Assembly (NCBI GenBank): GCA_930990515.1
Contig: CAKNPS010000002.1
Location: 62,001-126,000 of the forward strand
DNA length: 64,000 nt
DNA from: an uncultured Clostridia bacterium
Lineage (GTDB): Bacteria > Bacillota > Clostridia > Christensenellales > UBA1242
Reading direction: 5' to 3'
This document shows, piece after piece, positions 1 to 38,581 of the stretch. The first letter of the stretch is position 1. Each line of letters begins with the position of its first letter. A program made the position numbers and the translations under genes. Below the pieces are notes generated by a model. It saw only the letters and a list, made by a program, of their open reading frames with translations. It did no database searches and was not told the DNA's origin.

Positions 1-3000
1 TAATTCCTGTGAGAGAACCACCTTGTCTTGCCCAACCCATAAAGGTGTAACCAGCAAGATTATAATGTTTAGTGATTGTTCTTGGAGTGTTGTATGTAAG
101 AGTTAATGGACTCATAGTTTCTGTTGCAGTTCCATAATTGCCACTACCAGATGTGTTTACATCGTTTGCGTTAAATTGAACGTTATAAGTGTTTGCTGTC
201 CAAACTGCGTAAACATCGTAAATTCCATCAGTTTCATCAATATTCCAAGTAAAGTTTGCACCAAGGTCATAGGTTATTACATTGCTACCTTCACTTGTTG
301 CCCAGCCACGAAGAGTATAGCCTGTTCTTGTAAACTCTTTATCACCTTGTTCTTTTGTTAAGAATGTGTAATTTTGTCCAAATGTTGCTTTTGTTGTATC
401 ACTGTATGGGTCGCCAGTAGCACCAGTGTTTGCATTATAGCGAACAGTATAAGTTTTTGCTGTCCAAATTGCATACAAATGATATTGTCCGACTGTTTCG
501 TGAGTATATGCATCACCATTACTATATGTCTTTGTGCTATCAGCATTTCTCCAACCAGAGAATCTATAGCCAGTTCTTTCAGCAGTGATAAGAGTTCCAG
601 TTTCTTTTGTTGCGATAAGATTTGTTCCATCGCTTGTTGTGTAGTAACCAATATCACCAGTTCCACCAAAGTTTACATTAACAGCGAATGATGTTTTACC
701 ATTGATTGCACCGCCATCGCCTGCATTATAAACAACTTGGTATTGAATTGGTTGACCATAACCTGTGACAGTCATGTTGCTTGCAGGCATATTAAAGGTG
801 TTTGTGTTTCCAATTGTCATACCAGAAACATTTGTTCCCCATGCTCTGAAACTATAACCATCGGTTAAAGTGTAAGTAAGTTCAATTCTTGTTCCAAAAT
901 CAATATCATTGATTGTAACACTACCTTGTTCAGCAGTAACTGAACCAATTTGTGTCTCAATGTCGCCTTCGCCAACACGATTGATTGTGATGGATGCAAT
1001 TCCAACATCTTCGCCACCAGCAATAGTTACAGTCAAAGCAAAGTCTTGAATTTGCCAAATTGCATAAAGTGTGATTGATGTTCCGTCGCTTGTCGGAGTA
1101 AGAAGATTTGTATAAGGTTGATTAGCCTCATATCTATTTCCAGCGCTTTCGCCAAGTGGAGAAGTTGACCAATATTCAAAAGTATATCCAGTTAGAGTAA
1201 GTGCACTTGCAATTGTCACTGAACTATCAAATTCAACTGTTTGAGGACTTGGAAGTGAAGCACTTGGCAATTTGCTAATTAAATCATCGTCATTAGCATC
1301 ATAAGTAATTGTATATTCTCTTGCTTCCCAAGTTGCAACGAGAACCAAATCACCATAGTTTCCTTGACCAATTGTTGTTGTTCCAGTAAGATCGGCTCCA
1401 GTTGACCAGCCACCTGTTGTTGCATCGCCAGTGTTTGTCACACTTTCCACTCTCCAACCAGTAAATTCGTATCCTGAAACGCTTGCTGTTGCAAGTGTAA
1501 AGCCGTTAACAATATTGTAAGAACCTGAAGTTGTTGAAAGCGAAGCATCGTCCATAGGTGCGTCATTTGCATCAACACCTTTTTGGTATGTGATTGTATA
1601 TTCGTGAGCGGTGAAGCGTGCAGATAAAGTAAGTGTTCCGCTTGTAATATTCCAAACACCATTATTTATATTAATTGCTCCAGCATTTGTGATAATCACT
1701 TGATTTGCATCATTGTAGAAACCATTGAAGTCATAAGCAATCTTAGATGCATTAGGTGTGATTATATGTCCAGTAAGAGCAGTATCATCTTTCCCATAAG
1801 GATTTATATCATAAAGTCTGTTGTCATCATATCTAGCATAAATTGTTTTGCTTGGTGTGATTGTCACACCTGTTTCGTCATTGTATGGAGTAAGGGTAAT
1901 TGTCGTTACATTTGCAGTCCACTGTGCAGTGATTGTTTCACTTCCAGCACCAAATGTATAAATATATCCTTCTCCACTTTCGTTTTCTTCAATGCTACCA
2001 GCATTTGCTGGATCATTCCAACCTGAGAATGTATAGCCCACTCTTGTAGGTTTGTTAATGCTCAAAGTTGATTCAAATTGACGAGTATATGTTGCATTTG
2101 AAGTAACACCATTGTCATTATAATTTACAGTCAATGTGTAAGAATTTCTTGTATAGTAAAGATTGATAACAAGGCTTCCGTCACCATTAATGTTAAGGTC
2201 AGTGTTAGTTCCACCAAAACCAGCACCATTGCCAACATTATAAGTACCACTATAAGTAAAGCCTTCAACATCAACTGCTAATGCTTCAAGTTCATCACTT
2301 GACACATTTGTATCAGTTGTTCCACGACCTGTGGCATTTGGTTGTCTATTAGTGTCGTGAGTATATGTTGCTGCATTTAAATCTTGGAAGTAATAGTGAA
2401 CAGTATAAATTGTATCTGTATTTGCTTGCCAAATTGCATAAAGCGTAACCGCACCATCAGTTGCAGCACCGGCATCAACTGAAGTTGTCCAATTGTCTAA
2501 GAGCGCGCCTTGGTTATTTGTGATAGGAGAGCCATTAATTGTTGTTGCCCAGCCCATAAATGTATAACCATCACGAGTTGGAACGAGAGTTGAAAGAGCT
2601 TCTCCTTTTGGTGTTGTTACATTTATTCTATTTGCATAGATATTAGTTGAATTGTATTCGATATAAACTTCACTATATGTGAATGCATCTGCTTTTGTTG
2701 CACCATTTGTATCATTCAAATTCAATTTCACACGAACAAGATTTGCATCTGTGTTGATTGTGAGAGTGAAGTTTTCTGCTGGCATTGAGAATTCATTGTT
2801 GTTATTGATTGTGATTTCGCTTGTTGCATTGTCAGTGAATCCAACAAAGGAGTATCCAGCATTAACATCAAATGTCACCCTAACAGTGTAGCCATAAACA
2901 ATTCTATATCCATTTTCAGATGGGTCAATTTCAGAATCATTACCTAAAACTGTAATGTTAGTTACTTGTGCATTTGAACTATCAATTGTAAGATAATAAG

Positions 3001-6000
3001 AACGAACTTGCCATACAGCATAAAGAATTGTATCAACACTAAATGTTGAATTTGCAAGCATAGTTCCGTCTTCGCCAATAACATTTGCAATTGCTGCATT
3101 GTTAGTTGTAGCAAAACCTAAGAAATCATATCCTTCACGAGTAAGTGTAACGCTAGAAATTCGATTTTGTGGAATATATGGATAACCTTCTCCGGTTCTT
3201 CCACTATAAATATTTTGTGTTCCATAAGTTATGTAAACCAATCTATTATCGCTATCTACTGCTGGTGTTAAACTATCTGGTGACCAAGTAACATCAGCAT
3301 CAGTATTGACATCAAGAGTAATTTGATATGTGTTTGCAGTGTAATATGCATAAACAGTTGTTCCAGCTGTTCTTTTCCATACATCACTTAATGATCCTGT
3401 TGCAGAAATTAAGTAATTGCTGTCATCAGAAGTTGCACTTTCTGACCAACCATTGAATGTATAGCCAACAAGTGTAACTCTTGGAGAAACAGTTTCGCTA
3501 CCAGTTGATGTCACATATAAGTTTTGAGAATTATATTCTGCATAAACAATGTTATTTTGAATTTGAGTTCCAGTTAAAGTTCCGCCATTCAAAACAAGGT
3601 TAATTGCATATCTATCTGCTCTCCATTGAGCATATAAGTCAATATTCCCACCATTTTCTGAAGTCAAGTTATGAACTTCAGCATCACCAGCATAAGCTGT
3701 TCCTTGACCATTTGCTTTTGTGTTCCAACCAGTAAATGTATATCCAGTTCTTTTAAATGCATTAGGAGATAGTGCAGTTTCTACATCATAAGTGATTGTT
3801 TGTTGATATTCATCACTATCTTCAGCATTAAAACCACCATTTCCATGGAAAGTGATTGTGTAAGTGTTTGCTTGCCATTGAGCATAGATTCTAACTTGTC
3901 CACCATTAGTTGATGTCAAATTAAGAGCAGTCCAAGAACCATCTTGATTTGTTAAACCTGTAGTATCAGTTCCTTCTGCATTTCTTGCCCAACCAACAAA
4001 ATGATATCCAGTTTTTGATAAACCTGTGCCATCAGATAGTGTTGCAGGAGTGTCATAATGTGCCGTAACATTTTCAAGTTGACCTGAGCCAGTATTCATA
4101 TCATAAATGATCGTATAAGTATTAGCTGTCCAAGTTGCTTCCAACGTTACATTGCCATATCTTCCTGTTCCGATTTCTAAATCAGTGATAACATTACCAA
4201 TTGTCCAGCCACCAACAACTTCATCTTCTGTTGTGTTTGTTGTTCCACCGACTTGAACAGAAACAACTCTGTAGCCAGCGAATTGATAGCCAGTTCTTGA
4301 AGAAGCAGAAAGAGTTAAATCTGTTTCAACATTGTATGGAGATGTGCTAGGATTTGGAAGTGTGATTTCTTCTTCTGTAACATCTAAGCTTCCTGCAGTA
4401 TAAATAACATTATATGGAATTGGAGTTGCAGTTGCTGTAAGAGTAACATCGCCAGCACCCATAGTTACTTGGTTATTAGTCATTGTAGAAGGTGTATAAC
4501 TAAATCCAGTTGGAGTTGAACTTGCAGTCCAAGTCGACCAAGAATATCCGCCAGCACAAACAGCAGAAACATTGATTGTTTGACCAAATTTCAAAACTTG
4601 AGGACTATTTGGTGATACGCTTGAAATTCCACGACCTGCAGATACTGTCAAGTTGTAAGAAAGTCTATCAAAGTAAAGATTGATAACAAGGCTTCCATCT
4701 CCTGCAACATTCAAGTCTTGGTTAGCACCGTCAAAGCCTGCATCTAAGCCAACATTATATTTGTTAAATTTAAAACCGACTTGACTATATGTTGAAGATT
4801 GCCCACCAACACCTTGAACAGCAACGGAAACAACATAAGAGCCATCACTACTGTTATTTTCAGTGATTGAAACATCAGTGTCTGTTGTTCCTTGTTGGAT
4901 GTATGTATCAGAGCCTGATAGAGCATACTCACCATCTGTGAGTGTTTCCAAATATTTATTAACTGTAAAGTTTACAACTTGTGGAGTTGCAGAAACCCCA
5001 AAAGTTCTGTCAGTTGTAACTTGTAGGTTTTGAAGTGTTGAATTTGAAACTGTAGAACTATTTTCTGTAAATACAGGAGCATTATAACCCGCCTTAGCTG
5101 TTGCAGAAATAGCCACATTTTCTTGATAGTAAACAACATAAACTCTGTTTTCTTCACTTCCAGTGTTTGAAATTGCAGGAGTTGTTGCTCCGCTAACAAG
5201 AGAATTTACTGAAACAGTGTTAATTCCAGCTCCTACATTAATTCTTACATTATAAGTTCCACGAGTAAAGTAGATATTGATGTTAAGAGAGCCATCACCC
5301 AAAACAACGAGACTGTTATCAACACCACTTGTAGTATAAGTTCCCTTGCGAGTTGCTTTTAATGCTGAATTGTCACTAACAAATTTGTTTGCCCAAGTGT
5401 CAATTTGAGATGTTGAAATTGTTGTTCCAGCCATTGCAGTTAAATTTGTTAAACTTGAATGCAATGCATAGTTTGAAGTTACTAAATCTTCGGTATCTTG
5501 CAAACCATTTCTTGCACTAAGTAAAGTTTCATAATAGAAGTTTACAGTATATGGAACTGGGTCTGCTTCCCAAATTGCATATAAATTAACTTTTCCACCA
5601 GCAACACTAGACAATCCACTATAATAAGATGTATCGTCATATTCTCCTTCTTCTGGATTTGCTGAAGGGTCAAAGTCAGATGCAGTAGCATTTGGATTCG
5701 TGCTCCAACCAATGAAGTGATATCCTTCTCTATCATAAAGTTGAGAAAGTTGAATATTTTGAGTAAATGTAATATCTGCTCTTATTTCATCACTAGATGA
5801 TAGCCCTGATTTTAAAGTTGCAGGGTTTTCAGTTGTTCCATTACCATGGAAGTTAATTGTGTATGTGTTAACTTGCCATTGTGCATAGAAAGTTGTTGTA
5901 TATGTGTTTGGAGTTTCGCTTGTGTTTGTTGTGTAAGCATAATTAAAGTTTGTATTTTCTCCAATTGTCACATCACGACCTTCAGAATCTTTCCAACCTG

Positions 6001-9000
6001 TGAATGTATAGCCTTGACGAGTGAATTTTGTAGTCTCATTACCAAGCACTGTGTATTCACTATCAAATGTTGCTGAAGTTCCTTCGTATGTTGCTGGAGT
6101 TTCACCATAGCCAGCATTATAAACAACATTGATTGTGCGTGCTTGCCAACGCATATAGAGTTTAAGGGTTGGGTTTGCGTCCTCATTTCTCATATATGCA
6201 AGGAAAGTTGAAACGTCTGCACCTGCTGTCATTTGTTGTCCTTCGCCAGAAGCACTTGTGAACCAACCAAGGTCGGTATATCCACGTCTTTCGACTGTTG
6301 GAACACCGATAATTTGATTAGCAGTTACATAAAGACTTTCAAATGTCAAACTGAAGTCAACATACATTGTTTCAGCACCACGAGTAAACGATGCTCTTTC
6401 TGTTCCCGTTTCATCGTTCAAAACAAATGTCACGGTAACAGTTCTTGGTTCCCAAACAGCGTAAAGATTGAGAGTGTAATTTGAAATATATTGTCCGTAA
6501 GTTTCAAGGAAAGATGCATTGATAATGATGCTTGCATTTTCTTCAAAGTTTTCAATGTTTTCATCGCCAGCATTTAATGACCAACCAGCAAAAACATAAC
6601 CATCTCTTTCAAATCTATTTGCTGTAAACTCTGTTGTCACACCATCGAATGTGAATGGTTGTGTGTAAGTTGAGCCAGAAGTTGCATCACTAAGTACACC
6701 ACCATTTGCATTAAATTGAATTGTATAAGTTCTTGCTTGCCAAATTGCATAAAGTGTTGCTCCACCGTCAGAAGATGTTGTTGTCCAAATTGCATTTAAA
6801 ATACCATCATTGTCTGTGATAAGATCATCACCATCTGCTGATAATGACCAGCCAGAGAATGTATAACCTTCTCTTGTTGGAACAAAACCTACTGTTGAAC
6901 TTGCAAGTAAAGTTCCACCTTCACGAGCAGAGTAGATGTTTTGAGTGTCATATTCCACATAAACACCATTTGTTTCATAACCTAACATTGTTGAATCTGT
7001 TACACTTGTTGAACCATGTGCAGTATTTCCTTGTTTAGCCGAAGCATCATTAAGGTCAACATTAACTAAGAATCTTGCATTTTGCCAACTAGCAGTGAGT
7101 GTAACATCGCCGTAATATCTATAAGAACTTTGAGAATTGTCAAAAGTTCCATTCGAAACTAGAGAACCCCAGTTAATTGTTCCAGCAGTTCCTGTTGGAG
7201 TAACAACCCAGCCAGTGAAGTTATATCCAGTTCTTGTTGGAAGTGGAATGATAACACTTGTGCTATCAATTGTGTAATTTACTGTGTAATCTGTTCCTGC
7301 AGTTCCAGTTAAAGCATTACCACCATTTACATCATAGGTAATTTTATAGCCAGTTGCGGTCCAGAATGCAGTAAGAGTAACATCTCCATAAATTCTTGTA
7401 GTTACAGCATCTTCCACTTTAAGAGAAGCACCTTGCGCCACTCTGTTATTAGAGATGCTTGAGCCAAGTCCTAAAGTCCAACTTGCAAGCCCATCACCAG
7501 AAACTGTCCAGTGAGTCAAGTCATAAGCAGTACGTGAAAGGTAATTATCACTAAGAGTTACAAGCCCATCTTGTGTTGTGAAAGTCCAAACATTATATTC
7601 ATAAGTATAGTTATTCCCACTTTGAACATAACCAGATGGGAGTGATGGAGCAAAACTTCCGTTTCCACCAGTTGTGTATGTGATTGTGTATGTGTCATAA
7701 CTATATTGCAATGTAATAATTGTGCTTCCATCACCAGCAATTTGATTATTGTCAGTTCCATAACCATTGGTAATAGCATAGTCTGTCCCCTCAACGAGAG
7801 CACCACTTGCACCGGTTCCAATGTAGAAACCATTTAAATTAACACTATTATCAGCAACTACGCCTAAAACTTTTTGCAAGAATGTTGCATCAATCAAAGT
7901 TTCAGTTGTCGCTTCAACATTATCTAATGTTGTAACATTTTGATAACCACTCAAGGTTTGAATATTAACTTGAATAGTATAAGTTGTTCCAGTTGCTTTC
8001 CAAATTGCAGAGAGTGTAACATCGCCATAAACAGTTTCTTTTGAAATTGAGAAGTTTCCATCAACAAGTGTAATTGTCGAAGTGAATGTATCAATCCAGT
8101 TACCACCATCACTTGTAATTGTAAATCCTGTTAATGTGTAACCTCTTCTTGTGATTTGGTCATTATTATACAAATTAAATGTTTCAGTTTCAAAGTTGTA
8201 TGTTTGTGGGTTTGGTGTTCCAGCAGAAATTTCCCCACCATTTGCTTCATAAGTAATTTCATAGCCTTCAACTTGCCATTGAGCAATCAAAGTTACATTT
8301 CCGTGACGACCTGCGGTCAATTCTCCGTTGAGATAATCATTTCCACTAATTACCCAACCACCATTTCCGCCATCGGCAGTATCAGTAACACTTCCTTCAA
8401 TAGCCCAACCTAAAAATCTATAACCATCTTGTGTTGCAGTTGGCAAATTGATCGTTGAATTAATATTATAATTTGTTGTATATGTTCCAGTAAGAGGATT
8501 TCCACCATTTACATTGTAAGAAATAGTATATGATTTAATTGTCCAATTTGGAGTTAAAGTTACATTTCCATAGAAACCATTTACCCCATTGATTTGAGTG
8601 TTAATGTCAATAACACCTTGGTTGCTTGCCCAACCAGCACCCAATGTTTTATCAGACTCACTAAAATTAACCGTCCAACTTGCAAGTTCATAACCATTTC
8701 TATAAACTTGTTTTGAGTTTGCTTCACTGAAAGTGTCGCCAACAATATATACATCTGAAGAAAGAACTGTATATTCAACTTCTAGTATGTTTTGTGATGT
8801 CGAACCTGTCACAAAACCACCATTATCACTCATATCATAAGTGATTGTATAAGTGTTAACATTCCAATCTGCAAACAATTCTTCGTCAGCATTTGCTGTT
8901 GCTGGATAAACAAAATTATTTTCTGTTGTATAGATAGCATCAGAAGTTGCATCAAGTGCCCAGCCACCAAAGGTATAACCAGCTCTTGCCAAAGCACTTC

Positions 9001-12000
9001 CATCACTATATATACCTTTGTTAAGAGTCAATGCTTTTCCGTGAAGTTTAGTATCGTTATTAATTATACCAGCATCACCACCATTTACATTATAAGTGAT
9101 GGTATATTGTTCATAAAGTGATACGTAAATTGTTACATTTCCCGATAATGCCCATGAATATGTTGTTGTGTCTAGATCACTTGACAATGTCGCATCAGTA
9201 GTTTGTGCAGTTCCAACTGCCACACGATAATGACGAGAAGCATCTGAAACTGTGATGTTTACTGTTTGTGCAGAACCAGTATAAGCAAGAGTAATTGTGT
9301 TTGATGTATCGCTTTCAGAAATATTGATTTCTTGAGCACCAGCACTAATGGTGATTGTTGGTGCTGTTGAAAACCCATGATTTCCTAAGTTAACTGTCAA
9401 TGTATAATTTACAGGAGTAAATCTTGGAGAAAGAGTTGCTCCTGAATTTCTAATCCAATTACCATTACTATCAGTATAGCCACTTACATTTGATTGTAAA
9501 GTAAAGTTTGTTGTTGAACCAGATTGATATCCAATAACAAGATTTCCCTCATCATTTTCCCAACCAACAAAGGTATAGTGATTTCTTTGAGGTGCAGTTG
9601 GGTTAGAAAGTAGTCCGCCAGCATATTGAACTTGTATTGTTTGGGCTTCTGCGTCTTCCATTCCTAAAACAAGGTCATAAGTTTGAGCAGCCCAGTTTGC
9701 TGTCAAAACAACATTACCATGTCTTCCAGTTACATCGTTTTCCACCGCTGAAATAGATGATGGCCAATTACCAACATTTAAACCATCACTAGTTCCAGAA
9801 ACTGCAACTGTCCAGCCAGTGAAATTATATCCTGTTCTTGTAGGAATTAAAACGTCAAATGTTGTGTTGATTGTATATTCTTCAATTGCTTCTTCTGGCA
9901 TTGTTCCGCCAAGAAGATTTTCATAAGAAATTGTGTAAGTTACAAGAGTCCATTGTGCTTCAAACACAACATCGCCAAATCTACCTGTTGTAGAAGATGT
10001 ATAAGTGTTTCCAACAGTCCAGCCACCATAAGAGTAACTTGCAGCCCCATTACCTTCAATAGAAGTAACTAACCAACCAGCAAAATCATAACCATTTTTA
10101 TAAACCGCTTGTGAGCCGAAAGACGCAAGGTTTAAATCTCTTTCAATAGTATAAGTGGTTGTATAAGGATCAGATTTTCCGTCAAACCAACTTCCGCCAT
10201 CAAGATTAAATTTTGCATCGTATGGGTTTGCTCCGCTCCAAACAGCAAATAAAGTTTGTGATGAAACAACACTCAAAAGTTCTGAAGACAATGCTTCAAG
10301 AACATCGCTTGTCGTAAATTCAGCAGAACCAGCATTTTCAGTTGTTGCCCAGCCTTGTAGTGTATAACCATTTCTTGTCGTAATGCTTGAAAGTGTGGAT
10401 AAGTCAAATGACTCATTAATTTTAATATTTCTAGTTGTCGTTCCAGTGCTTGAGCCTTCAATTTGGCCACCATTAGCAGAAACTGTAACTGAAATTTCTT
10501 GCGCAACCCAGTGAGCATAAAGTGTTTCATTATCAACATCATGAGTCCAAAGTCCATTTGTCCCCCAAACACTTAAAAGTCCGCCTTGAGCACTTACGAT
10601 TTGTTGTCTATTAGAGCCATTAGGGTCAGCCACATTATAGAAACCACCAAATGAATAATATTCAGTGCTTGTATCATCATCAGTCCAACTAGGAATTGTG
10701 AAATTTGGTGTTTGGTCATACTTTACTGTAATTTGAGTAGTAGTCCCACCACCAGGGAATGTTGCAGAACCTGAACTTCCTTCTGCTTGATAATATGAAC
10801 TGTTTGCATCAAGAGTTAAAGTGTAACTTTTTGCACTCCAAACAGCATAAATTCTGTTAGGATTTTCAGCAGTTCCGTCTGCAGAAAATAGTGTAAATGT
10901 TCCATTAACTCCGCCATTTTCATTAATAATAATTGAACTATCTCCAGCAGTTGCTGTTTGATTTGAACTAAAACCACGATAGTCATAGCCTTCACGAGTA
11001 ACATTTCCTGAAGTGATGGATATTTGTCCAGAACCTTCAGTTGTGCTTGTTCTTGTTGTATAAATTTCCGTTCCACCATATCTAATATAAACGGTTGTAT
11101 AATCTAAGGCAGGGTTAGAAGAACCACTTCCTTTGTTTCCATCAAGAGTAACTGCAATCAAATTGCCAGTCCAATGAGCAGTAATTGTTGCCTTTCCCGT
11201 TGTAAAGGTTGTGCTTCCAACAATATTTCCGCTTGCATCGATAATTTGAGTGTCATTATAGTAATAACCAGCAAAAGTATAGCCAGTTTTTCTAAGATTA
11301 GAAACATCAATTCTAGTAATTCTGTTTCCTTCTTGTGCATTTACATTATTAAAGAAACCATCACTATATCTCAAATAAATTTGACTTGTAGAAGCACCTT
11401 GACCGCCATCATGATTTAATGTGATAGTTAATATATTAGAAGTCCAAATAGGATAAACATCAATTGTTGCCCCATTTGTTGTTGTCAAGTTTCCAAAAAC
11501 AGTGGAAGTGTAAACTCCACCTGTTCCAATGGTGTTTGTAATATTTGTTGTAGACCCGCCATTTAAAGACCAACCAGCAAAAGTATAACCAGGGCGTGTC
11601 AATTCAAAATCTGATGATGTAATTGTAATTGTTTGGTCATAGGTTGCTGTTCTTGAACTTGGATTTGGTAAAGTTCCTTCAACATCATCTTCTCCCATAT
11701 TGAACTCAATTGTATAAGTAATAGGATTCCAAACAGCATAAACTGAATAAGTATCGCCATTATCTAAATCAATATTCCAAGGGTTTAAAACTTGACCAGG
11801 AGTATATGCAACAACTTTATTGTTTGCATTTTCTTGACTCGTTGCCCAACCTTGCAAAATGTATCCTGTGCGAGTTATAGCACCATCAACATCTTCAAAA
11901 GTATATGGAGAACCAAAAGTTGCATTATTTCGATATTCAGTAGCACCAGAACTTGTTGTCCCACCATTGCCATCATATCTAACTATATATGTGTCAAATT

Positions 12001-15000
12001 CCATAATGGCATTTAAAACAACATCTCCTAATCTACCCGAAGAAATTTGCATTGAAGTGATTTCATTTCCAACAGTCCAGCCACCATAGGTATAGCCACT
12101 TGTTGAGTTTTCGTTGATTGAAACAACAGTCCACCCTTCAAAATGATAGCCAACTTGTGACGCTGTTCCAAGTGTAAAACCACTTGTATAAGTATAAGTT
12201 GTATCTGCAGGTAATGTTACACCATTACCCCCTTGATAATCAATCCTATAATCATACAAATCCCAATTTGCTCTTAATGTAACATCACCATATCTTCCTG
12301 TGCTGTTTTGAATTGTTCCGCTTGAAACAGTTTGTCCAATTGTCCAACCACCATGTGTTCCAGAAGTATAAATTTCATTGCTATCAATTTCTCCGTCAAG
12401 GTCTTCATCAATTGCAACTTGAGTTATTGTCCAATTAAGAAAATCATAACCTGTTCTTACAAAACCATTTTGGCTAACCACAACATTACTACCATAAGAG
12501 TATGTAGAATCAGCAGTTGAACCACTTGTTGCACCATTTCCATCATAAGTAATTGTGTTTTCGCCAAATTCGAATTCAAGATGAAGCCCTGCTTCATTTG
12601 TGCCTGCAGAGATTGTGAAATCTCCTGTGTCAGTTGTTCCATTAGGACCATAAGAGCCGTCAAATGCCCCAACAATGTTATTGCTCCAACCACTTTCAAG
12701 AGTTGCAGTGCTAGCATTGATAATGGCATTTTGTCCGTAATAAACAGTTACATAAACATTAACTGTTGCACCACTTTCATCAGTAACCCATAAGAAAGGC
12801 ATATCAAGAGTAGAACCCGATGAATTTAACAAAGAGTTGCTGCCAAATTGTGCTTGAACAATGTTTGAAGCATAACCCAAACCATAGTTTTCTCCATTAA
12901 CCACAACTCCACTTTCTATAAGAGAAGAGAAATCAAATTTAACATTTCTTGCAGTAAAGTTTGGTTTTAAAGAAAGATTAGCATTGTTTACATAAGTTGA
13001 GCCAAAATCATAAGATGTAGAGCCATCAGTCCAATTTGTAAATGTGTAACCATCTTTCCAAACATTGTTTGGTCTATTAGATATAGTATAAGAGAATTGT
13101 GCAGATGAACTTCTGTTATGAAGTTTATATCCATTTGCAACATTCATAGTCCCTTCTGCTCCAGTATCACCAACAATATAAGATATAGTATATACTTGAT
13201 ATACATATAAGTTATAAGGACTATTTTCATTAATAGTGAAAGTAAATGTATAACTTTGTGTATCTGCATTAACATCACTTGGTGTTGAAGTCAAAGAACC
13301 ATTATTTGATACATAGTAATCTGTTCCATTTGAAACGGTAACTTGAATGGTTGCTTCTGTTCCATAAGTTCCAGTAAGAGTTAAAGATTCTCCATTTGAA
13401 ATTGCTGTGTTAGGAACTGTCACACCAGATGTTTGAGATGTGATTGATATATTTGTTGCAGCTCCAACATAAGCCCCTGCGTAATTAATTCTAAATTCGT
13501 AACCAGTATCAACATCCCAGTGAACATAAATAGGAGTTGTACCTTTTGTTGTTCTTAAATTGTAAACATAATAAACACCATCAACTAAATATATACCAGA
13601 GCTAGTAATATCATCGACACTATCTACTTCGGTTACAGTGCTAGCATTTCCACTAGCGGTTAATTTATAACCACCAAAACTATGCCCCACTCTTACCCAA
13701 GAAACATTATTGATTGCTAAAGGTTCATCATAAGTTGCTGTTTGATTAAATGATGGTTGCCCTGTGGACGTTTTTCCACCATTACCATCTACCGTAACTG
13801 TATATTCAATAGGTGTCCAATCTCCGTATAAATTAACGACCAAATCACTACCACTTGTTGTAACATTCAAACTTGAAACTATCGTTTCCGTTCCTACAAG
13901 ATTTGATTCTGTTTCAGAAGTGCTCCAACCTTCAAAAATATAACCAGTTCTTTCTGCTGTTGGCATAGTCGAAAGCTGCTCATTATATTTTCTAGTAATT
14001 CTTACTGTTGTTCCACTTGCTTCTCCAGTAAATGAAGCATTTTCACCATTTAAATTGTAGATTATTGTAACATCTTTTGGTTTCCAACTTGCTTGAAGTT
14101 CAATATCCCCATAATTAGAAGCAGAAGTTCCTGAATAACTACCTCCAACAGTCCAACCACCATAAGAATAGCCGTTTGTTGCGTTACTGTTGACTGAAAC
14201 AACTGTCCAACCATCAAAAGTCCAACCAAAAGCAGAAATTGTAGGGAAGGTAACTTGTGTTGTTGAACCTGTTGTATAATGGTCAGTTGCAGGGTTATTT
14301 ACTCCACTCATATTCGCATTATACACAATATCATATTCATTCCCTGTCCACACTGCATAGACATCAAAAGTTTGATTGTTTGATGTTGGAACAAAATCTG
14401 TATAAGGAGATTTGTTTGGATTCTCTTTATCAGCATACACTGCTTCACCACCTTCACTTTTTGCCCAACCAGCAAAAGCATATCCAGGTCTAGTGAATTC
14501 ATTAGGATCCATAGTTTGAGACGCTACATTTTCATCACTATATGTAAACCCAGTTTGAGTATATTGTATAGCTCCGGAAGACGTTTGTCCGCCATTCCCA
14601 TTATATCTAAGATTATATGTATAAGGCACCCAATTTGGCGTTAAAATTACATTACCATAAGCAATTTCTGGAATTGTGGCATCAGTATATATTTCACCTT
14701 GCTCCCAACCACCAGAACTACCTTGTCCATTGTCACTTACTGAAACCGAAGCTACGCGCCAGCCTTCAAGACGATAACCGCCACGAGTAATGTATGTCCT
14801 TGAAGATGTTTCAGTTAATAGAGAAATACTATCAGTAGTATCTATAGTATAAGTTATTTTATGTGAATCATTCTCTTCCGAACCACCATGGATTTCACCT
14901 CTACCATCGTCAGTCGAATTAAAAGTTATTGTATATTCAATTGTTTTCCATGCAGCAAAAATAGAAATTCCTTCACTTCCTTCAGGAATAGTAACTTTAG

Positions 15001-15994
15001 CAGCAAAAGTTCCATCTGTAGGTTCTGTTGCAGAAGGGTCATCAATAAGTTCAGGATAAACATACCAACCAATTTGCTCATAACCTGGTCTTGCCAAAAT
15101 ATATTGACTCTCGAGACCAATAGTTCTAGAACCCGGTAAAGTCATAACAATTTTAGAATTGTCTGCCTCGTCAGAAATGCCGGAATACAAATAGACCTTA
15201 ACAGCTTCAGTTCCGCTGATTTTTTCATTAATATAAGAAGCAGGGTATGGATAAACCCCTGTAGGTCTAGAAGTCCAACTTCCACCAACTAACTCGCTTG
15301 CAGCATAAGCCCAGCCTTCATTTGAGAAATTCCAAGAACCTGACCAAATGTTATAGTCAGTTTCTTTATCAGCTTCTTTATGTGTATATGTATTTTGTGC
15401 TAAAAACCTAACTTCTCCAAGAAGTGTAGTTAATGAAACATCAATTTTTGTCCAATCATTCGCATCATCTTCCCAAACATGCGTCACTGGTTCAGAACTA
15501 CCATAAACAAATCCGCCTGACTTCATATCGGTTGTAATGTTACTTACATTGAGCGAACCAGATGAACTAGCATAGAAAATAACATTGTTTAAATATAAGT
15601 CAGTTGGTGTTCCTGAGAAAAGGGAAGCCGAACCAGACCCAGTATAAACAAAAATTGAGTTTGTGATTTCCACATCACTATTTGCTAGACTCCCAAGCAT
15701 TGTTGCGTTATTGTAAACAAACAAGCTGTTTGCAATGCTAACAGTTTTTCCAGCCAAATTTGTTGGAGCCGTTGTAACATACTGCTGATTATAAGTTACA
15801 TCAGCAACAGCCATTGCTCCGATTTCATCTTCAAGTGAATTATCACTCACGTTTTCATTTTCGGTTTCTGCAGCTATGTAATTTTCAGATGCAAAAAAGT
15901 TTGCAAGTGAACTTACTCCCAAACCGAAAGTGGTTGCAAACATCAAAATGCCTGCCAAGATGACAAATCCAAATTTTCTTTTCAGTCTATCCAT
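1..15994 (-). CDS. giant secreted InlB-type repeat surface protein (5' part, runs off window)
   Basis: The start ATG (15994-15992) has a GGAG Shine-Dalgarno seven bases upstream, and the next upstream ATG in that frame hits a stop at once. Reading at the start, near 12.5 kb, near 8 kb and at the left edge stays in one frame with no stop, so at least 5331 codons lie here and the C-terminus is outside. Residues 1-35 are a basic stretch plus hydrophobic segment (MDRLKRKFGFVILAGILMFA), a signal sequence. About 150 residues follow with Ser/Asn-rich, beta-helix-like sequence. From about residue 300 onward the protein is dozens of roughly 80-100-residue units of the type Y-x-I-x-YN-x-NGG ... GY-x-F-x-GW ... 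G-x-V-x-L-x-A-x-W, the pattern of InlB B repeats (Listeria-Bacteroides repeat family). Such proteins are secreted or wall-anchored adhesin-like proteins; any anchor would be in the missing C-terminus. The ligand is unknown. Confidence 0.9.
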   Translation of the reverse strand, partial: MDRLKRKFGFVILAGILMFATTFGLGVSSLANFFASENYIAAETENENVSDNSLEDEIGAMAVADVTYNQQYVTTAPTNLAGKTVSIANSLFVYNNATMLGSLANSDVEITNSIFVYTGSGSASLFSGTPTDLYLNNVIFYASSSGSLNVSNITTDMKSGGFVYGSSEPVTHVWEDDANDWTKIDVSLTTLLGEVRFLAQNTYTHKEADKETDYNIWSGSWNFSNEGWAYAASELVGGSWTSRPTGVYPYPASYINEKISGTEAVKVYLYSGISDEADNSKIVMTLPGSRTIGLESQYILARPGYEQIGWYVYPELIDDPSATEPTDGTFAAKVTIPEGSEGISIFAAWKTIEYTITFNSTDDGRGEIHGGSEENDSHKITYTIDTTDSISLLTETSSRTYITRGGYRLEGWRVASVSVSDNGQGSSGGWEQGEIYTDATIPEIAYGNVILTPNWVPYTYNLRYNGNGGQTSSGAIQYTQTGFTYSDENVASQTMDPNEFTRPGYAFAGWAKSEGGEAVYADKENPNKSPYTDFVPTSNNQTFDVYAVWTGNEYDIVYNANMSGVNNPATDHYTTGSTTQVTFPTISAFGWTFDGWTVVSVNSNATNGYSYGGWTVGGSYSGTSASNYGDIELQASWKPKDVTIIYNLNGENASFTGEASGTTVRITRKYNEQLSTMPTAERTGYIFEGWSTSETESNLVGTETIVSSLNVTTSGSDLVVNLYGDWTPIEYTVTVDGNGGKTSTGQPSFNQTATYDEPLAINNVSWVRVGHSFGGYKLTASGNASTVTEVDSVDDITSSGIYLVDGVYYVYNLRTTKGTTPIYVHWDVDTGYEFRINYAGAYVGAATNISITSQTSGVTVPNTAISNGESLTLTGTYGTEATIQVTVSNGTDYYVSNNGSLTSTPSDVNADTQSYTFTFTINENSPYNLYVYQVYTISYIVGDTGAEGTMNVANGYKLHNRSSSAQFSYTISNRPNNVWKDGYTFTNWTDGSTSYDFGSTYVNNANLSLKPNFTARNVKFDFSSLIESGVVVNGENYGLGYASNIVQAQFGSNSLLNSSGSTLDMPFLWVTDESGATVNVYVTVYYGQNAIINASTATLESGWSNNIVGAFDGSYGPNGTTDTGDFTISAGTNEAGLHLEFEFGENTITYDGNGATSGSTADSTYSYGSNVVVSQNGFVRTGYDFLNWTITQVAIDEDLDGEIDSNEIYTSGTHGGWTIGQTVSSGTIQNSTGRYGDVTLRANWDLYDYRIDYQGGNGVTLPADTTYTYTSGFTLGTASQVGYHFEGWTVVSINENSTSGYTYGGWTVGNEITSMQISSGRLGDVVLNAIMEFDTYIVRYDGNGGTTSSGATEYRNNATFGSPYTFEDVDGAITRTGYILQGWATSQENANNKVVAYTPGQVLNPWNIDLDNGDTYSVYAVWNPITYTIEFNMGEDDVEGTLPNPSSRTATYDQTITITSSDFELTRPGYTFAGWSLNGGSTTNITNTIGTGGVYTSTVFGNLTTTNGATIDVYPIWTSNILTITLNHDGGQGASTSQIYLRYSDGFFNNVNAQEGNRITRIDVSNLRKTGYTFAGYYYNDTQIIDASGNIVGSTTFTTGKATITAHWTGNLIAVTLDGNKGSGSSNPALDYTTVYIRYGGTEIYTTRTSTTEGSGQISITSGNVTREGYDYRGFSSNQTATAGDSSIIINENGGVNGTFTLFSADGTAENPNRIYAVWSAKSYTLTLDANSSYYQAEGSSGSATFPGGGTTTQITVKYDQTPNFTIPSWTDDDTSTEYYSFGGFYNVADPNGSNRQQIVSAQGGLLSVWGTNGLWTHDVDNETLYAHWVAQEISVTVSANGGQIEGSSTGTTTRNIKINESFDLSTLSSITTRNGYTLQGWATTENAGSAEFTTSDVLEALSSELLSVVSSQTLFAVWSGANPYDAKFNLDGGSWFDGKSDPYTTTYTIERDLNLASFGSQAVYKNGYDFAGWLVTSIEGNGAASYSYGGWTVGNTYTSSTTGRFGDVVFEAQWTLVTYTISYENLLGGTMPEEAIEEYTINTTFDVLIPTRTGYNFTGWTVAVSGTSDGLNVGNWPSSISAVENDVTGRHGNVVLTANWAAQTYDLVLGMEDAEAQTIQVQYAGGLLSNPTAPQRNHYTFVGWENDEGNLVIGYQSGSTTNFTLQSNVSGYTDSNGNWIRNSGATLSPRFTPVNYTLTVNLGNHGFSTAPTITISAGAQEINISESDTSNTITLAYTGSAQTVNITVSDASRHYRVAVGTAQTTDATLSSDLDTTTYSWALSGNVTIYVSLYEQYTITYNVNGGDAGIINNDTKLHGKALTLNKGIYSDGSALARAGYTFGGWALDATSDAIYTTENNFVYPATANADEELFADWNVNTYTITYDMSDNGGFVTGSTSQNILEVEYTVLSSDVYIVGDTFSEANSKQVYRNGYELASWTVNFSESDKTLGAGWASNQGVIDINTQINGVNGFYGNVTLTPNWTIKSYTISYNVNGGNPLTGTYTTNYNINSTINLPTATQDGYRFLGWAIEGSVTDTADGGNGGWVISGNDYLNGELTAGRHGNVTLIAQWQVEGYEITYEANGGEISAGTPNPQTYNFETETFNLYNNDQITRRGYTLTGFTITSDGGNWIDTFTSTITLVDGNFSISKETVYGDVTLSAIWKATGTTYTIQVNIQTLSGYQNVTTLDNVEATTETLIDATFLQKVLGVVADNSVNLNGFYIGTGASGALVEGTDYAITNGYGTDNNQIAGDGSTIITLQYSYDTYTITYTTGGNGSFAPSLPSGYVQSGNNYTYEYNVWTFTTQDGLVTLSDNYLSRTAYDLTHWTVSGDGLASWTLGLGSSISNNRVAQGASLKVEDAVTTRIYGDVTLTAFWTATGYKITYDVNGGNALTGTAGTDYTVNYTIDSTSVIIPLPTRTGYNFTGWVVTPTGTAGTINWGSLVSNGTFDNSQSSYRYYGDVTLTASWQNARFLVNVDLNDASAKQGNTAHGSTSVTDSTMLGYETNGVYVEYDTQNIYSAREGGTLLASSTVGFVPTREGYTFSGWSLSADGDDLITDNDGILNAIWTTTSSDGGATLYAIWQARTYTIQFNANGGVLSDATSGSTYTQPFTFDGVTTEFTANRFERDGYVFAGWSLNAGDENIENFEENASIIINASFLETYGQYISNYTLNLYAVWEPRTVTVTFVLNDETGTERASFTRGAETMYVDFSLTFESLYVTANQIIGVPTVERRGYTDLGWFTSASGEGQQMTAGADVSTFLAYMRNEDANPTLKLYMRWQARTINVVYNAGYGETPATYEGTSATFDSEYTVLGNETTKFTRQGYTFTGWKDSEGRDVTIGENTNFNYAYTTNTSETPNTYTTTFYAQWQVNTYTINFHGNGTTENPATLKSGLSSSDEIRADITFTQNIQLSQLYDREGYHFIGWSTNPNATASDFDPSANPEEGEYDDTSYYSGLSSVAGGKVNLYAIWEADPVPYTVNFYYETLLSARNGLQDTEDLVTSNYALHSSLTNLTAMAGTTISTSQIDTWANKFVSDNSALKATRKGTYTTSGVDNSLVVLGDGSLNINIYFTRGTYNVRINVGAGINTVSVNSLVSGATTPAISNTGSEENRVYVVYYQENVAISATAKAGYNAPVFTENSSTVSNSTLQNLQVTTDRTFGVSATPQVVNFTVNKYLETLTDGEYALSGSDTYIQQGTTDTDVSITENNSSDGSYVVSVAVQGVGGQSSTYSQVGFKFNKYNVGLDAGFDGANQDLNVAGDGSLVINLYFDRLSYNLTVSAGRGISSVSPNSPQVLKFGQTINVSAVCAGGYSWSTWTASSTPTGFSYTPSTMTNNQVTMGAGDVTLTATATPIPYNVIYTAGSLDVTEEEITLPNPSTSPYNVETDLTLSASSRTGYQFAGYRVVSVQVGGTTNTTEDEVVGGWTIGNVITDLEIGTGRYGNVTLEATWTANTYTIIYDMNTGSGQLENVTAHYDTPATLSDGTGLSKTGYHFVGWARNAEGTDTTGLTNQDGSWTALNLTSTNGGQVRIYAQWQANTYTITFHGNGGFNAEDSDEYQQTITYDVETALSPNAFKRTGYTFTGWNTKANGQGTAYAGDAEVHNLTSENGGNIDLYAQWRADRYAINLVLNGGTLTGTQIQNNIVYAEYNSQNLYVTSTGSETVSPRVTLVGYTFNGWSESATSDDSNYLISATGSLSDVWKRTAGTTVYAYYTANTYQITLDVNTDADVTWSPDSLTPAVDSDNRLVYITYGTQNIYSGRTGEGYPYIPQNRISSVTLTREGYDFLGFATTNNAAIANVIGEDGTMLANSTFSVDTILYAVWQVRSYYLTIDSSNAQVTNITVLGNDSEIDPSENGYRIVYGYTVRVTFDVNAGYSFVGFTDNATSEITINNNNEFSMPAENFTLTINTDANLVRVKLNLNDTNGATKADAFTYSEVYIEYNSTNIYANRINVTTPKGEALSTLVPTRDGYTFMGWATTINGSPITNNQGALLDNWTTSVDAGAATDGAVTLYAIWQANTDTIYTVHYYFQDLNAATYTHDTNRQPNATGRGTTDTNVSSDELEALAVDVEGFTYSGTYNVGNGAGFGGTNTDLNINGDGSLVINLYYTRNSYTLTVNYNDNGVTSNATYTRQFESTLSINKPTRVGYTFSGWNDPANAGSIEENESGEGYIYTFGAGSETITAQWTANVTTITLTPYNDETGVTITPSKTIYARYDDNRLYDINPYGKDDTALTGHIITPNASKIAYDFNGFYNDANQVIITNAGAININNGVWNITSGTLTLSARFTAHEYTITYQKGVDANDAPMDDASLSTTSGSYNIVNGFTLATASVSGYEFTGWRVESVTNTGDATTGGWSTGADLTGTTTIGQGNYGDLVLVATWEAREYTITYDANDDDLISKLPSASLPSPQTVEFDSSVTIASALTLTGYTFEYWSTSPLGESAGNRYEANQPYTNLLTPTSDGTSITLYAIWQIQDFALTVTIAGGEDVGIASITINRVGEGDIETQIGSVTAEQGSVTINDIDFGTRIELTYTLTDGYSFRAWGTNVSGMTIGNTNTFNMPASNMTVTGYGQPIQYQVVYNAGDGGAINGKTSFAVNVNFGGTGDIGYYTTSDGTNLIATKETGTLITAERTGYRFSGWRNADSTKTYSNGDAYTHETVGQYHLYAIWTAKTYTVRYNANTGATGDPYSDTTKATFGQNYTFLTKEQGDKEFTRTGYTLRGWATSEGSNVITYDLGANFTWNIDETDGIYDVYAVWTANTYNVQFNANDVNTSGSGNYGTATETMSPLTLTYNTPRTITKHYNLAGYTFMGWARQGGSLTGI

Positions 15995-16596
15995 ATACCT
16001 ACTCCATTTTAATTTTAGGTCTTGTCCCTATTCACGCAAAAAACTCTCAAAACATACATTTATTCGAGAGAAGTCAAACTTTTTATCCTTGCGGAAAATT
16101 GACAAGAATTTTCCTATGTAAATATTATAATAAATATGTGCAATATTTGTCAAATTAAACGGGAAAATTTTTATAAAAAAATTTCTCTTAAAACCACTAA
16201 AAGCAATAAGACTTGAAATTGCCGAAAAAGCAGTAATTTAGCAAGATTAAAACCTTTGCAAAAAATTAAGAAAAATCAATTAAAATCAAGTTTTTTATAA
16301 AATTTCGCATTATTTTTTACATTTTTTCATTTTTTATTCAAAAACACAATTAAATTTTTCAAAAATTACCAAAAAATTGCCAAATTCTCGAAATTTTTAT
16401 AGATTTTTTGACTTTATTTGTGAATTTTACCATATTTTTTAAAATTTTACCCTAAAATACTTTTCAAGTTTAAATTTAAATTTAATTTTTTCAAAATTTA
16501 ACAAGAAAACTTTTCTCACATAGAATGATATTAGGTGCAAATTTGTGCTTTTCAAAATACATATTTGCCACCAAATATAGACAAAAGAGAAAAAAA
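15995..16596. other. 602-bp intergenic region with structured leader
   Basis: No gene seen. The leader of the giant gene contains a perfect 8-bp inverted repeat (GGAAAATT/AATTTTCC, 16093-16114). Further down is a CTCTCGAA...TTTGAGAG hairpin followed by a T run on the minus strand (roughly 16034-16067), which looks like a terminator ahead of the coding sequence. The remaining part up to the ZIP gene is almost pure A/T with no structure I could support. Confidence 0.5.
16124..16153 (-). promoter_or_regulatory. consensus sigma-A promoter of the giant repeat-protein gene
   Basis: On the minus strand there is TTGACA (16153-16148), an 18-bp spacer and TATAAT (16129-16124), both hexamers perfect. 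Transcription should start near 16117, giving a leader of about 120 nt before the ATG at 15994. Confidence 0.75.
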
Positions 16597-17361
16597 ATGA
16601 GTGATTTGTTATATATAATTATTGGCTTTAGCATCATTTTTTTAATGACAATTCTTGGTGCTAGTTGTGTATTTTTTCTAAAAAAGCCTTCCAATTTTGT
16701 CAATATGCTCACGGTCGGCTTTGCTTCAGGCATTATGCTTTCAGCATCAATCTGGTCATTATTGTTACCATCAATAGATTATGCGGAAAGTGATTATGGC
16801 AACGTTTTTATCCTGCCAGTTGCCTTAGGTTTTCTTTTAGGTGGAATTTTTATGGTTCTTTTAGACAAAATCACAGGACACTTTTCAAATTTAAAAAACG
16901 ATAAAAGCAAGTTTAAAGCCTATAAGCTTTTTACAGCAGTCACAGTTCACAATATACCTGAAGGACTTTCAGTTGGGTTTGCCTTTGGGGCAGTCGCAGC
17001 AACATCTGGAAATTTTTTGCCGGCTATTATGGTGGCAGTCGGAATTGCCCTTCAAAACTTTCCTGAAGGTCTAGCAGTTGCATTGCCAATGTATAAAACC
17101 CTTGGGAAAAAGGGAAAAGCCTTTGTTTTAGGAAGTTTAAGTGGAATTGTTGAGCCAATTTTTGCTATTATCGGATTTTTCTTAGCCACTGAACTTACAT
17201 TTCTTATGCCTTGGCTTCTTGCTTTTTCTGCTGGTGCAATGATTTATGTCGTCATCGAAGAACTTCTTCCCGAACTTCACATCAACGAAAAGACTACGAT
17301 TGGGACTTGGGCTTTTATGTTTGGTTTTGTCATAATGATGGTTTTAGATTTGTGTTTATAA
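16597..17361 (+). CDS. ZIP-family divalent metal (zinc) transporter
   Basis: 254 residues from the ATG at 16597. An in-frame ATG at 16525 would add 24 poorly membrane-like residues, so I prefer the internal start even though its ribosome site is weak (AGAG). About eight hydrophobic helices are visible. Two metal-site helices carry the ZIP signatures HNIPEGLSVGFAF (TM4) and QNFPEGLAVALP (TM5), and a third motif is EELLPELH near the C-terminus. The short, His-poor loop between TM3 and TM4 and the overall length fit the bacterial GufA/ZupT branch, which imports zinc and other divalent metals across the cytoplasmic membrane. It stands alone and converges on jag across a very AT-rich gap. Substrate preference cannot be read from the sequence. 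Confidence 0.9.
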   Translation: MSDLLYIIIGFSIIFLMTILGASCVFFLKKPSNFVNMLTVGFASGIMLSASIWSLLLPSIDYAESDYGNVFILPVALGFLLGGIFMVLLDKITGHFSNLKNDKSKFKAYKLFTAVTVHNIPEGLSVGFAFGAVAATSGNFLPAIMVAVGIALQNFPEGLAVALPMYKTLGKKGKAFVLGSLSGIVEPIFAIIGFFLATELTFLMPWLLAFSAGAMIYVVIEELLPELHINEKTTIGTWAFMFGFVIMMVLDLCL

Positions 17362-34534: not shown

Positions 34535-34625
34535 GGAGAGTTACTCAAGAGGTCGAAGAGGCTCCCCTGCTAAGGGAGTAGGGTTGTAAAAGGCCGCGAG
34601 AGTTCGAATCTCTCACTCTCCGCCA
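34535..34625 (+). tRNA. tRNA-Ser (anticodon GCU)
   Basis: 91 nt including an encoded CCA. Acceptor arms GGAGAGT/ACTCTCC, discriminator G, anticodon stem-loop with GCT, a long variable arm typical of serine tRNAs, and a T arm with GTTCGAATC. The 3' end is the left border of an integrated element. Confidence 0.95.
34608..34625 (+). repeat. left attachment-site candidate (tRNA 3' end)
   Basis: ATCTCTCACTCTCCGCCA, the 3' end of tRNA-Ser. Recurs with 16/18 identity at 45419-45436 in the same orientation. Confidence 0.55.
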
Positions 34626-34632
34626 ATGAAAG

Positions 34633-34666
34633 CGTAAATCTACGAACACCTAGATTTGCGTTTTTT
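34633..34666 (+). terminator. terminator behind tRNA-Ser
   Basis: CGTAAATCTA/TAGATTTGCG stem (one G-T pair), 8-nt loop, then six T. Confidence 0.8.
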
Positions 34667-34669
34667 GTT

Positions 34670-34697
34670 TTTACATAATGGATTTAGATGTTATAAT
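34670..34697 (+). promoter_or_regulatory. promoter of HEPN-motif gene
   Basis: TTTACA, 16-bp spacer, TATAAT directly followed by GGGAGG and an ATG at 34712. Confidence 0.55.
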
Positions 34698-34711
34698 GGG
34701 AGGTAAAAAAT

Positions 34712-35473
34712 ATGTTAAATGATAAAATAGCTGAAATACTAAAACCGATAGCAGAATTTTCTGTCAATATGAATAAAACTTTGAAACCACTTACAAATGC
34801 AATATCTTCCATTGTAAAGACTATTTCAGAATTTTATGAAAAATTAAAATATGACAATTTTACAGAACAAGAAATAAATTATTATATTGATATTTATTAT
34901 AGATATGGTGAATTTGGGTGGAGCATTCCTTTTAATACAGAAATTTTATTTAAAAAGGCTCCTGTAAGTTTAGAAAATGCGGATAAAAAGTTAATAAAAT
35001 ATTGTACAAAAAAATCTATGGATGATTGCTTCTTATATATTCTATCAAGTAAATGTGTAAACCAAGAAGATTTTGCAGAAGGTGAATTTTGTTATAGAAA
35101 GAAAAAATATAAGGCTTGTATTTTAATGCTATATTCAATTATTGATTCTTTGATTATTCGTTTACAATCTCCAAAAACTAAAGGACACAGACAAACAAGT
35201 GAAACCTTTAAAAAATTAGATACAGCTATAAAAAACAATGGTAAAGAATATATTTTTTACATGTGCAGATTTTCAGCAACATTGGTGTGTTTAAAAACTT
35301 TATATGCTAATGGAAATGATTTTAAAGTACAACCAAATGTTCCCAATCGCAACTTTATTTCACATGGCATGTTGCTCAGGGAAGTTACTAAAACTGATTG
35401 TATAAAAATTTTTATTTTATTACAAAACTTGTGCTTTATAATTAAACATTTAAAACTTACATTATATAGTTAA
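34712..35473 (+). CDS. HEPN-motif protein of unknown role (candidate ribonuclease/abortive-infection type)
   Basis: 253 residues with a GGGAGG ribosome site. The N-terminus (1-50) is an amphipathic helix run (LKPIAEFSVNMNKTLKPLTNAISSIVKTI), then YYRYGEFGWSIPFN. The C-terminal half is all-helical. A hydrophobic helix CILMLYSIIDSLIIRL is followed by N-R-N-F-I-S-H-G, with Arg213 and His218 forming the R-x4-H signature of HEPN domains (here the RNxxxH form), just before a final helix pair. HEPN proteins with this motif are often metal-independent RNases in defence and toxin systems. Its position as the first gene of the mobile element, with its own promoter and opposite to all other element genes, fits a stand-alone defence cargo. 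Substrate and activity are unproven. Confidence 0.6.
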   Translation: MLNDKIAEILKPIAEFSVNMNKTLKPLTNAISSIVKTISEFYEKLKYDNFTEQEINYYIDIYYRYGEFGWSIPFNTEILFKKAPVSLENADKKLIKYCTKKSMDDCFLYILSSKCVNQEDFAEGEFCYRKKKYKACILMLYSIIDSLIIRLQSPKTKGHRQTSETFKKLDTAIKNNGKEYIFYMCRFSATLVCLKTLYANGNDFKVQPNVPNRNFISHGMLLREVTKTDCIKIFILLQNLCFIIKHLKLTLYS

Positions 35474-35518
35474 AAGCTTTAATTCATTCTAGAGCATGGA
35501 ATAAACAGCTTTTAAATT

Positions 35519-37018: not shown

Positions 37019-37053
37019 TTGTTTTTACTCCTTTTATTCAATATTTTTATTTG

Positions 37054-37193
37054 TCTTTCGACGGAAAGCGTAAAAACGAAAATGACTTATTATCTTTTCC
37101 TTTTATGTTTTAAATTTGTAGTCAAGGGTTGTGAAACAATATATTTTACCCTTGACAACAAAGAGTTTTCGTTTACGCTAAACAGACGAAAGA
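37054..37193. repeat. nested inverted repeats between recombinase and rep genes
   Basis: Outer arms TCTTTCG (37054-37060)/CGAAAGA (37187-37193) and AGCGTAAAAACGAAAA (37067-37082)/TTTTCGTTTACGCT (37166-37179); inner perfect arms GTCAAGGGT (37121-37129)/ACCCTTGAC (37148-37156). No gene in this 179-bp gap. Could be a rep terminator, an att site or a replication-related structure. Confidence 0.55.
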
Positions 37194-37197
37194 TAAT

Positions 37198-38073: not shown

Positions 38074-38197
38074 TATTTTCGCCTCCTTTTTCTTTTGACT
38101 TTTTAAGACTTAAAATTCTTTGATAGATTATTCTGTAAAAGTTTAAATCAAAGATTGATAAGTCTATTTCAGTTGCATTTTGCTTTTCTTCGTTCAT
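38045..38197 (-). CDS. small protein overlapping the rep start
   Basis: 50 residues (MNEEKQNATEIDLSIFDLNF...), with a good AAGGAG ribosome site 10 bases before the ATG. It ends 29 nt inside rep in another frame, and the rep ribosome site is within it. No family recognised; it is charged, with one likely helix (FYRIIYQRILSLKKSKEK). A leader or copy-control role by translational coupling is plausible but inferred. Confidence 0.55.
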   Translation of the reverse strand: MNEEKQNATEIDLSIFDLNFYRIIYQRILSLKKSKEKGGENNVLSTSESV

Positions 38198-38410: not shown

Positions 38411-38431
38411 AAACTAGTACAAAACTAGTAC
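38411..38431. repeat. tandem direct repeats upstream of rep
   Basis: Two copies of AAACTAGTAC, 11 bp apart (38411-38420, 38422-38431), each containing palindromic ACTAGT. One helical turn apart, so they look like an operator or iteron pair. Confidence 0.5.
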
Positions 38432-38572: not shown

Positions 38573-38581
38573 CTTGAAATT

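Follow-up and report, generated by a model that had tools for sequence, protein, structure and literature searches.

The giant gene and its locus

The window analyzed here is a stretch of 64,000 nucleotides (C2:62001-126000, C2 being a contig of the source genome, G000), at whose left end a single frame on the minus strand runs from an ATG start at 15994 down to position 2 without a stop (Table 1). A first-pass annotation of the window had described one uninterrupted InlB-repeat frame of at least 5331 codons, encoding a protein of more than about 580 kDa. Both statements hold, as a real observation and an underestimate: the in-window part amounts to 575 kDa, and with the left flank added the frame closes 18,475 bases to the left of window base 1, so that the complete gene spans 34,470 bp and the protein, at 11,489 residues and 1,251,927 Da (1.25 MDa), is twice the size first seen. 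This one gene takes up 2.9% of a 1.18 Mb genome (1,177,379 bases in 10 contigs, rated 100% complete). An open frame of this length cannot be attributed to chance, because 11,489 stop-free codons have a probability of ~10^-375 at the local base composition; G+C at the three codon positions is 45/45/20%. The encoded protein has a pI of 4.1, a strongly negative net charge over its entire length, 14% threonine and two cysteines.

The promoter regarded as convincing in the first-pass annotation proved to be a perfect match to the consensus, and 11 of the 14 sequences compared (G000 included) carry a match of 11-12 out of 12 positions ahead of their giant. The proteins in this comparison are only 13-56% identical to the G000 giant over their first 400 residues, and close relatives also conserve the sequence that separates and surrounds the hexamers (TTGACA...TTGCACATATATATTATAATA). 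Just past the promoter, at window positions 16093-16114, the leader contains a perfect 8-bp hairpin, GGAAAATT-CTTGTC-AATTTTCC. Comparable leader hairpins of different sequence occur in some relatives, a few of them with z values of about -2.6 to -4, and are absent from others; we accordingly make no claim for a conserved 5'-terminal mRNA stabilizer.

The locus has the order ZIP transporter, giant, DapB-like gene and tmk, with the ZIP gene directly upstream and divergent in most congeners, and with at least one of the two downstream genes present in every congener inspected except G027. The thymidylate kinase and the DapB-type dehydrogenase, which were named from sequence alone, both look like housekeeping genes. 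We therefore reject a functional linkage between them and the giant, and the locus serves only as a marker of orthology. Elsewhere in the window, dnaA and dnaN occupy positions 57181-60338, so that the replication origin is likely to lie ~40-75 kb from the giant, which is transcribed away from it. Positions 34535-45023 hold a probable integrated element adjoining a tRNA-Ser(GCT) gene, with a large serine recombinase, an ORF2/G2P-type replication protein, and Eco57I/N6-type and C5 DNA methyltransferases. A search of the window against Rfam returned one tRNA only.

Table 1. Features of the giant gene and its flank, in window coordinates
Feature	Position	Strand	Basis or remark
Giant gene, N-terminal 5331 codons	1..15994	-	runs past the window edge to C2:43525; 11,489 codons in all
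Promoter TTGACA-18-TATAAT	16124..16153	-	12/12; ~120-base leader
Ribosome-binding site GGAGTAGG	15998..16005	-	GGAG ends 7 bases before the ATG; GGAG in most relatives too
Predicted signal peptide, residues 1 to ~35	15890..15994	-	hydropathy; KRK, hydrophobic core at residues 7-31; MDRxKRK start kept in close relatives
Head, residues 57-225, predicted parallel beta-helix	15320..15826	-	model; residues 61-160 at pLDDT 71-90, weaker beyond
First InlB B-repeat fold, residues 263-353	14936..15208	-	low-confidence model; matches 2y5p, Z 5.4, 68 residues
Repeat array inside the window, residues 354-5331	2..14935	-	InlB-type modules of ~80-110 residues and four MucBP-like modules
M-type (MucBP-like) module 1	7694..7990	-	module profile
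M-type module 2	5255..5560	-	module profile
M-type module 3	4658..4978	-	module profile
M-type module 4	2138..2416	-	module profile
ZIP-type transporter	16525..17361	+	divergent from the giant; conserved locus flank, not part of the giant protein

Repeat modules, head and anchor

An iterated profile of the InlB-type repeat (B-type) recovered 82 modules in the protein and a second profile recovered 19 modules of another kind (M-type), a total of 101 that cover 75% of its length. The unmatched gaps left between them resemble further divergent modules, and the true count is probably higher than 101. The B-module profile matches the InlB B repeat as solved by crystallography (2y5p) over the whole domain with E = 3e-5, and all six structures that it finds are Internalin B; a beta-grasp-like fold for the repeat is suggested by this match and by the model of residues 263-353, a low-confidence region. 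In Pfam, Flg_new and/or Flg_new_2 match every piece of ~1000 residues between 1 and 10,332, whereas the final piece of that size is matched by Flg_new_2 alone and below the cut-off, with TIGR02543 matches near its end. Matches to PF18998 and TIGR02543 in the protein exceed their cut-offs. Counting InlB B repeats with PF09479 places 36 of the genome's 59 matches in the giant frame, most of them over the cut-off and 22 inside the window.

The first-pass annotation had read repeats of the type GYTF-x-GW throughout the frame. Their assignment to the InlB family stands, but the strict motif occurs only 15-16 times and most copies are degenerate. Nor do they run throughout, since the first ~262 residues are non-repeat and the C-terminal half interleaves the second repeat type: in G000 and in eight other giants the first half is nearly all B-type and the second half is a mixture of B and M modules. 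The M-type consensus (YTVxYYxQ...GTTD...GF...GDGSxVxxxYYxR) has no significant match in PDB or Pfam; taken as a set, the M-type modules do not match MucBP, one of 18 reaching 0.014. MucBP (PF06458) exceeds its cut-off in the orthologues G069 (6.7e-11), G102, G030 and G089, and in the G000 giant its best match, at residues ~6817-6888, has E = 0.005, below the cut-off. A model of one M-type and B pair reached a pLDDT of 45, too poor to define the shape or the length of the stalk, for which the values given below are guesses.

Hydropathy identifies exactly two hydrophobic segments in the whole protein, at residues 7-31 and 11448-11483. The first follows a KRK triplet and bears out the signal peptide of the first-pass annotation. 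The second is a predicted single transmembrane helix that runs into a lysine-rich tail, KKKKEKDKIRSR. The C-terminal anchoring suggested earlier is thus retained, in the form of a helix with a basic tail and not of an LPxTG or SLH wall anchor. The protein has no LPXTG motif, and a search for sortase was negative for ten genomes of the genus and positive for three controls; anchoring by sortase was accordingly rejected. All ten genomes encode penicillin-binding transpeptidases, and an amidase gene with peptidoglycan-binding domains lies inside the window. As these cells make peptidoglycan and lack sortase, the chain should be rooted in the membrane and pass through the wall.

These results bear on a reading in which the giant would serve to attack other cells or to feed on them, in the manner of the Omnitrophota giants proposed to degrade prey surfaces. 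The pairing of a small genome with a giant gene recalls that group (PMC10066038). However, scanning the full-length protein against Pfam gave Flg_new and Flg_new_2 only, with no enzymatic domain, and the single C-terminal helix differs from the 42 transmembrane helices predicted in an Omnitrophota giant (PMC10066038), which together make such a role very improbable. The same scans matched no LRR family, and thus no N-terminal internalin domain.

Between the signal peptide and the array (residues ~40-262) lies a non-repetitive head. Its model, built from an alignment of six relatives, has a mean pLDDT of 58, the values of 71-90 for residues 61-160 being taken per ten-residue block. Compared with known structures, this better-modeled part resembles parallel beta-helices of many families with Z up to 6.9, a range (below 7) that can reflect a common arrangement alone; the adhesin SRRP of L. 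reuteri (5nxk), with Z 5.6, is one of numerous beta-helices that are unrelated to one another. Foldseek gave no match at E <= 0.001, and a search of PDB with the whole head sequence gave none. We regard a beta-helix as likely for the head, and the match does not indicate a ligand. No head was found outside the genus among 200 genomes of the order, and among the genomes sampled it appears to be specific to the genus. Within the genus a head profile matches approximately 27 of 112 species beyond what the repeats alone would give; about three-quarters of the species have no recognizable head, which implies that its function is dispensable for the genus.

Orthologues and divergence

Many of the giant genes known from small genomes are scattered cases with poor conservation, in which function and accident are hard to tell apart. 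Here, intact orthologues with a start, a stop, a signal peptide and a C-terminal helix with a K/R tail were recovered from ten other species of the genus, ranging from 9,402 to 12,801 residues (G020, 12,129; G030, 12,714; G027, 9,667; G073, 11,100; G069, 12,801; G001, 9,409; G068, 9,402; G102, 12,715; G089, 12,556; G125, 11,304). Three further long frames are known by length alone (G003, 9,215; G119, 8,976; G036, 8,215), and a frame in G064 terminates without a transmembrane helix. In some congeners with smaller or rearranged genomes the DapB-like gene is kept with no remnant of a giant beside it. An 11,342-residue giant in a sister genus (G278) was rejected as an orthologue, as it shares the repeats alone and none of the flanking genes. 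In this gene (G278:C5:24444-58472, L085-L087) the first start codon is not followed by an obvious signal peptide, and the K-rich C-terminal anchor is missing.

The first-pass annotation had raised mis-assembly or an in-frame stop as possible grounds for doubt, and repeat-rich genes are indeed prone to mis-assembly; the G064 frame might also be taken as a sign of an assembly artefact or a decaying gene. Either origin is hardly credible here. The DNA repeats are too short to confuse assembly, eleven intact members in total occupy one locus, ten of them in separately assembled congener genomes, and dN/dS is well below 1. TRF detected no tandem DNA repeats in the gene, its single 33-base hit (L010:1236-1268) falling outside the frame.

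The C-terminal ~5,000 residues of the orthologues are collinear in one stretch, from residue ~6350-6600 to the end, at 25-36% identity; the exception is G068, in which the stretch begins at residue 7663 with 24% identity. Gains and losses are found in the N-terminal half. This pattern is relevant to the proposal that the protein is a precursor, cleaved outside the cell into shorter released fibers that form a matrix. In its favor are the linkers and unmatched gaps of 46-241 residues that separate the modules, and the giants of A. kunkeei have been detected in the supernatant as well as on cells (PMC12863079). Nevertheless, no protease domain was matched in Pfam, and collinearity of the C-terminal half across species without breaks speaks against the proposal, which we hold to be improbable.

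As a whole-protein blastp self-comparison gave nothing off the diagonal, probably a limit of the program's reporting, modules were aligned one by one. The best match of a module within its own protein has a median identity of 40% and a maximum of 56%, and is nearby in only 6 of 101 cases. In contrast, for 76 of the 101 modules the G020 orthologue gives a better score than does any other module of the G000 giant. The modules are therefore old. Expansion by repeat duplication followed by divergence, as envisaged in the first-pass annotation, is thus acceptable as ancient history and not as a recent event, given the lack of tandem DNA repeats and the closeness of the modules to their orthologous counterparts. 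Present divergence is mostly between orthologues, under weak purifying selection. A pair of close relatives (L036, L043), compared with each other, yields a dN/dS of 0.25 over 2,608 codons, with sub-windows at 0.11-0.35, against 0.015-0.075 for six neighboring genes. In a relative whose ZIP protein is 93% identical, the giant is just 46% identical over its first 2,600 residues. Judged from these substitution patterns, the protein is functional and fast-changing.

Proposed role and comparable giant proteins

We favor, with a probability of roughly 0.62, the interpretation that the giant is a long membrane-anchored adhesin or tether with a fast-evolving stalk and an N-terminal binding head. The sequences establish the intact frame, the promoter, the signal and anchor sequences, the identity of the repeats, conservation, synteny and selection; export and topology, adhesion, length and the fold of the head are what we infer. 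In its favor we count the two hydrophobic ends, the InlB and MucBP matches, the predicted beta-helical head, the ten orthologues, the collinear C-terminal half, synteny, the presence of transpeptidases but not of sortase, the strong conserved promoter and the fast but purifying evolution. InlB-type repeats are counted as adhesion factors in gut archaea (PMC7883539, PMC9723798). Against it we count the middling model of the head, the poor model of the repeat pair, the three-quarters or so of the species that have no recognizable head, and the description of InlB itself as acting mainly as a soluble protein, not as an adhesin (PMC8900821).

Under this proposal the protein would be exported as a single chain of 11,489 residues and held in the cytoplasmic membrane by its C-terminal helix, with the short basic tail remaining inside the cell. 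A chain of more than 100 small beta-rich domains, comprising beta-grasp-type InlB B repeats and MucBP-like domains, the latter concentrated in the membrane-proximal half, would cross the peptidoglycan outward and carry the genus-specific beta-helical head at its far N-terminal end. The head, probably aided by the modules, would bind a partner surface, which may be mucus, a plant particle or another microbe. The stalk would set the reach, which comes to ~0.3-0.5 micrometre when extended at an assumed 3-4 nm per domain, a guessed value.

A rather unlikely alternative is that many such acidic, threonine-rich chains form a surface coat, a brush serving the cell as spacer, shield or mechanical support, of the kind proposed for Ebh of S. 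aureus; divergence would then represent escape from phage, immunity or grazers. Topology and size match those of Ebh, which has ~1.1 MDa, a C terminus in the membrane and an uncertain function thought to be steric hindrance (PMC4856396). The strong promoter, the pI of 4.1 with negative charge along the full length, and a constraint that is weak on sequence and strong on architecture would also suit a coat. A pure spacer, however, would need neither a separate conserved non-repetitive head nor MucBP modules.

Giant bacterial surface genes are already known. The signal peptide, the megadalton repeat region and the single C-terminal transmembrane segment of Ebh (~1.1 MDa; PMC4856396) all recur here. 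Yet Ebh-type helical repeats are unmatched in Pfam scans of the giant, which has InlB/MucBP-type beta domains and a predicted beta-helical head, and its host, unlike S. aureus, lacks sortase and has a genome of ~1.2 Mb. Giant1-5 of Apilactobacillus kunkeei (3,000-8,000 residues; PMC12863079) likewise belong to a Gram-positive symbiont with a small genome and bear on a long stalk an N-terminal beta-solenoid head related to that of SRRP, for which the predicted beta-helix would be the counterpart here. Their stalks consist of alpha-helical repeats or of different beta arrays instead of InlB modules, their C-terminal end is SH3b-like and lacks the transmembrane helix seen here at 11448-11483, and they are encoded by five adjacent genes instead of one. 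Internalin B shares the repeat unit itself (PF09479/TIGR02543) and differs in having one B repeat together with leucine-rich repeats and GW domains, as opposed to more than 80 InlB-type modules with no LRR or GW domain matched. The giant ORFs of Omnitrophota, which include a far longer protein of 39,678 residues in V. archaeovorus, resemble the present one in their reduced genomes and in the part suggested for them in cell-to-cell contact (PMC10066038); most of them are said to show poor conservation and few annotated domains, whereas this family keeps its order and position throughout the genus. The best reading of these comparisons is that the giant would work like Ebh or the Apilactobacillus giants and is related to neither by the tests made, which for Ebh repeats were the Pfam scans.

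What is new here is the domain make-up, the sortase-free anchor in peptidoglycan-making cells and, above all, the conserved series across the genus; we found no description of this family in the open-licence literature searched. Because the orthologues, 9-13 thousand residues long, share a locus within a single genus, and because their promoter is conserved and selection on them can be measured, it becomes possible to study what is retained in a megadalton protein, whether selection acts on length itself, and how a cell benefits from devoting ~3% of a ~1.2 Mb genome to one surface fiber. It is a doubtful further step, taken as one claim, that this genus with reduced genomes (~0.6-1.5 Mb) evolved the conserved megadalton tether, with its more than 100 beta domains and genus-specific head, into its principal organ of contact and relies on it for physical attachment to a partner cell or surface, and that the M-type repeat would constitute an undescribed domain family.

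Several other large genes occur in these genomes. A second giant of G000 (C2:227180-246514, plus strand, L012/L013) encodes 6,444 residues with a signal peptide, a C-terminal transmembrane helix, and GLUG, YDG and InlB-type domains in Pfam, and frames of 4,356-6,270 residues with ends similar to it are found in G024, G021 and G016. Near it lies a gene for a putative lipoprotein of 3,603 residues (C2:206364-217175, plus strand, L026; LSSC lipobox), the first 3,000 residues of which matched no Pfam family. InlB-repeat frames of ~1,150-1,360 residues are present on other contigs of G000 (C1, C3, C4, C9 and C10), and the genus is generally rich in the InlB-type repeat, which was detected in 58 of the 61 species sampled.
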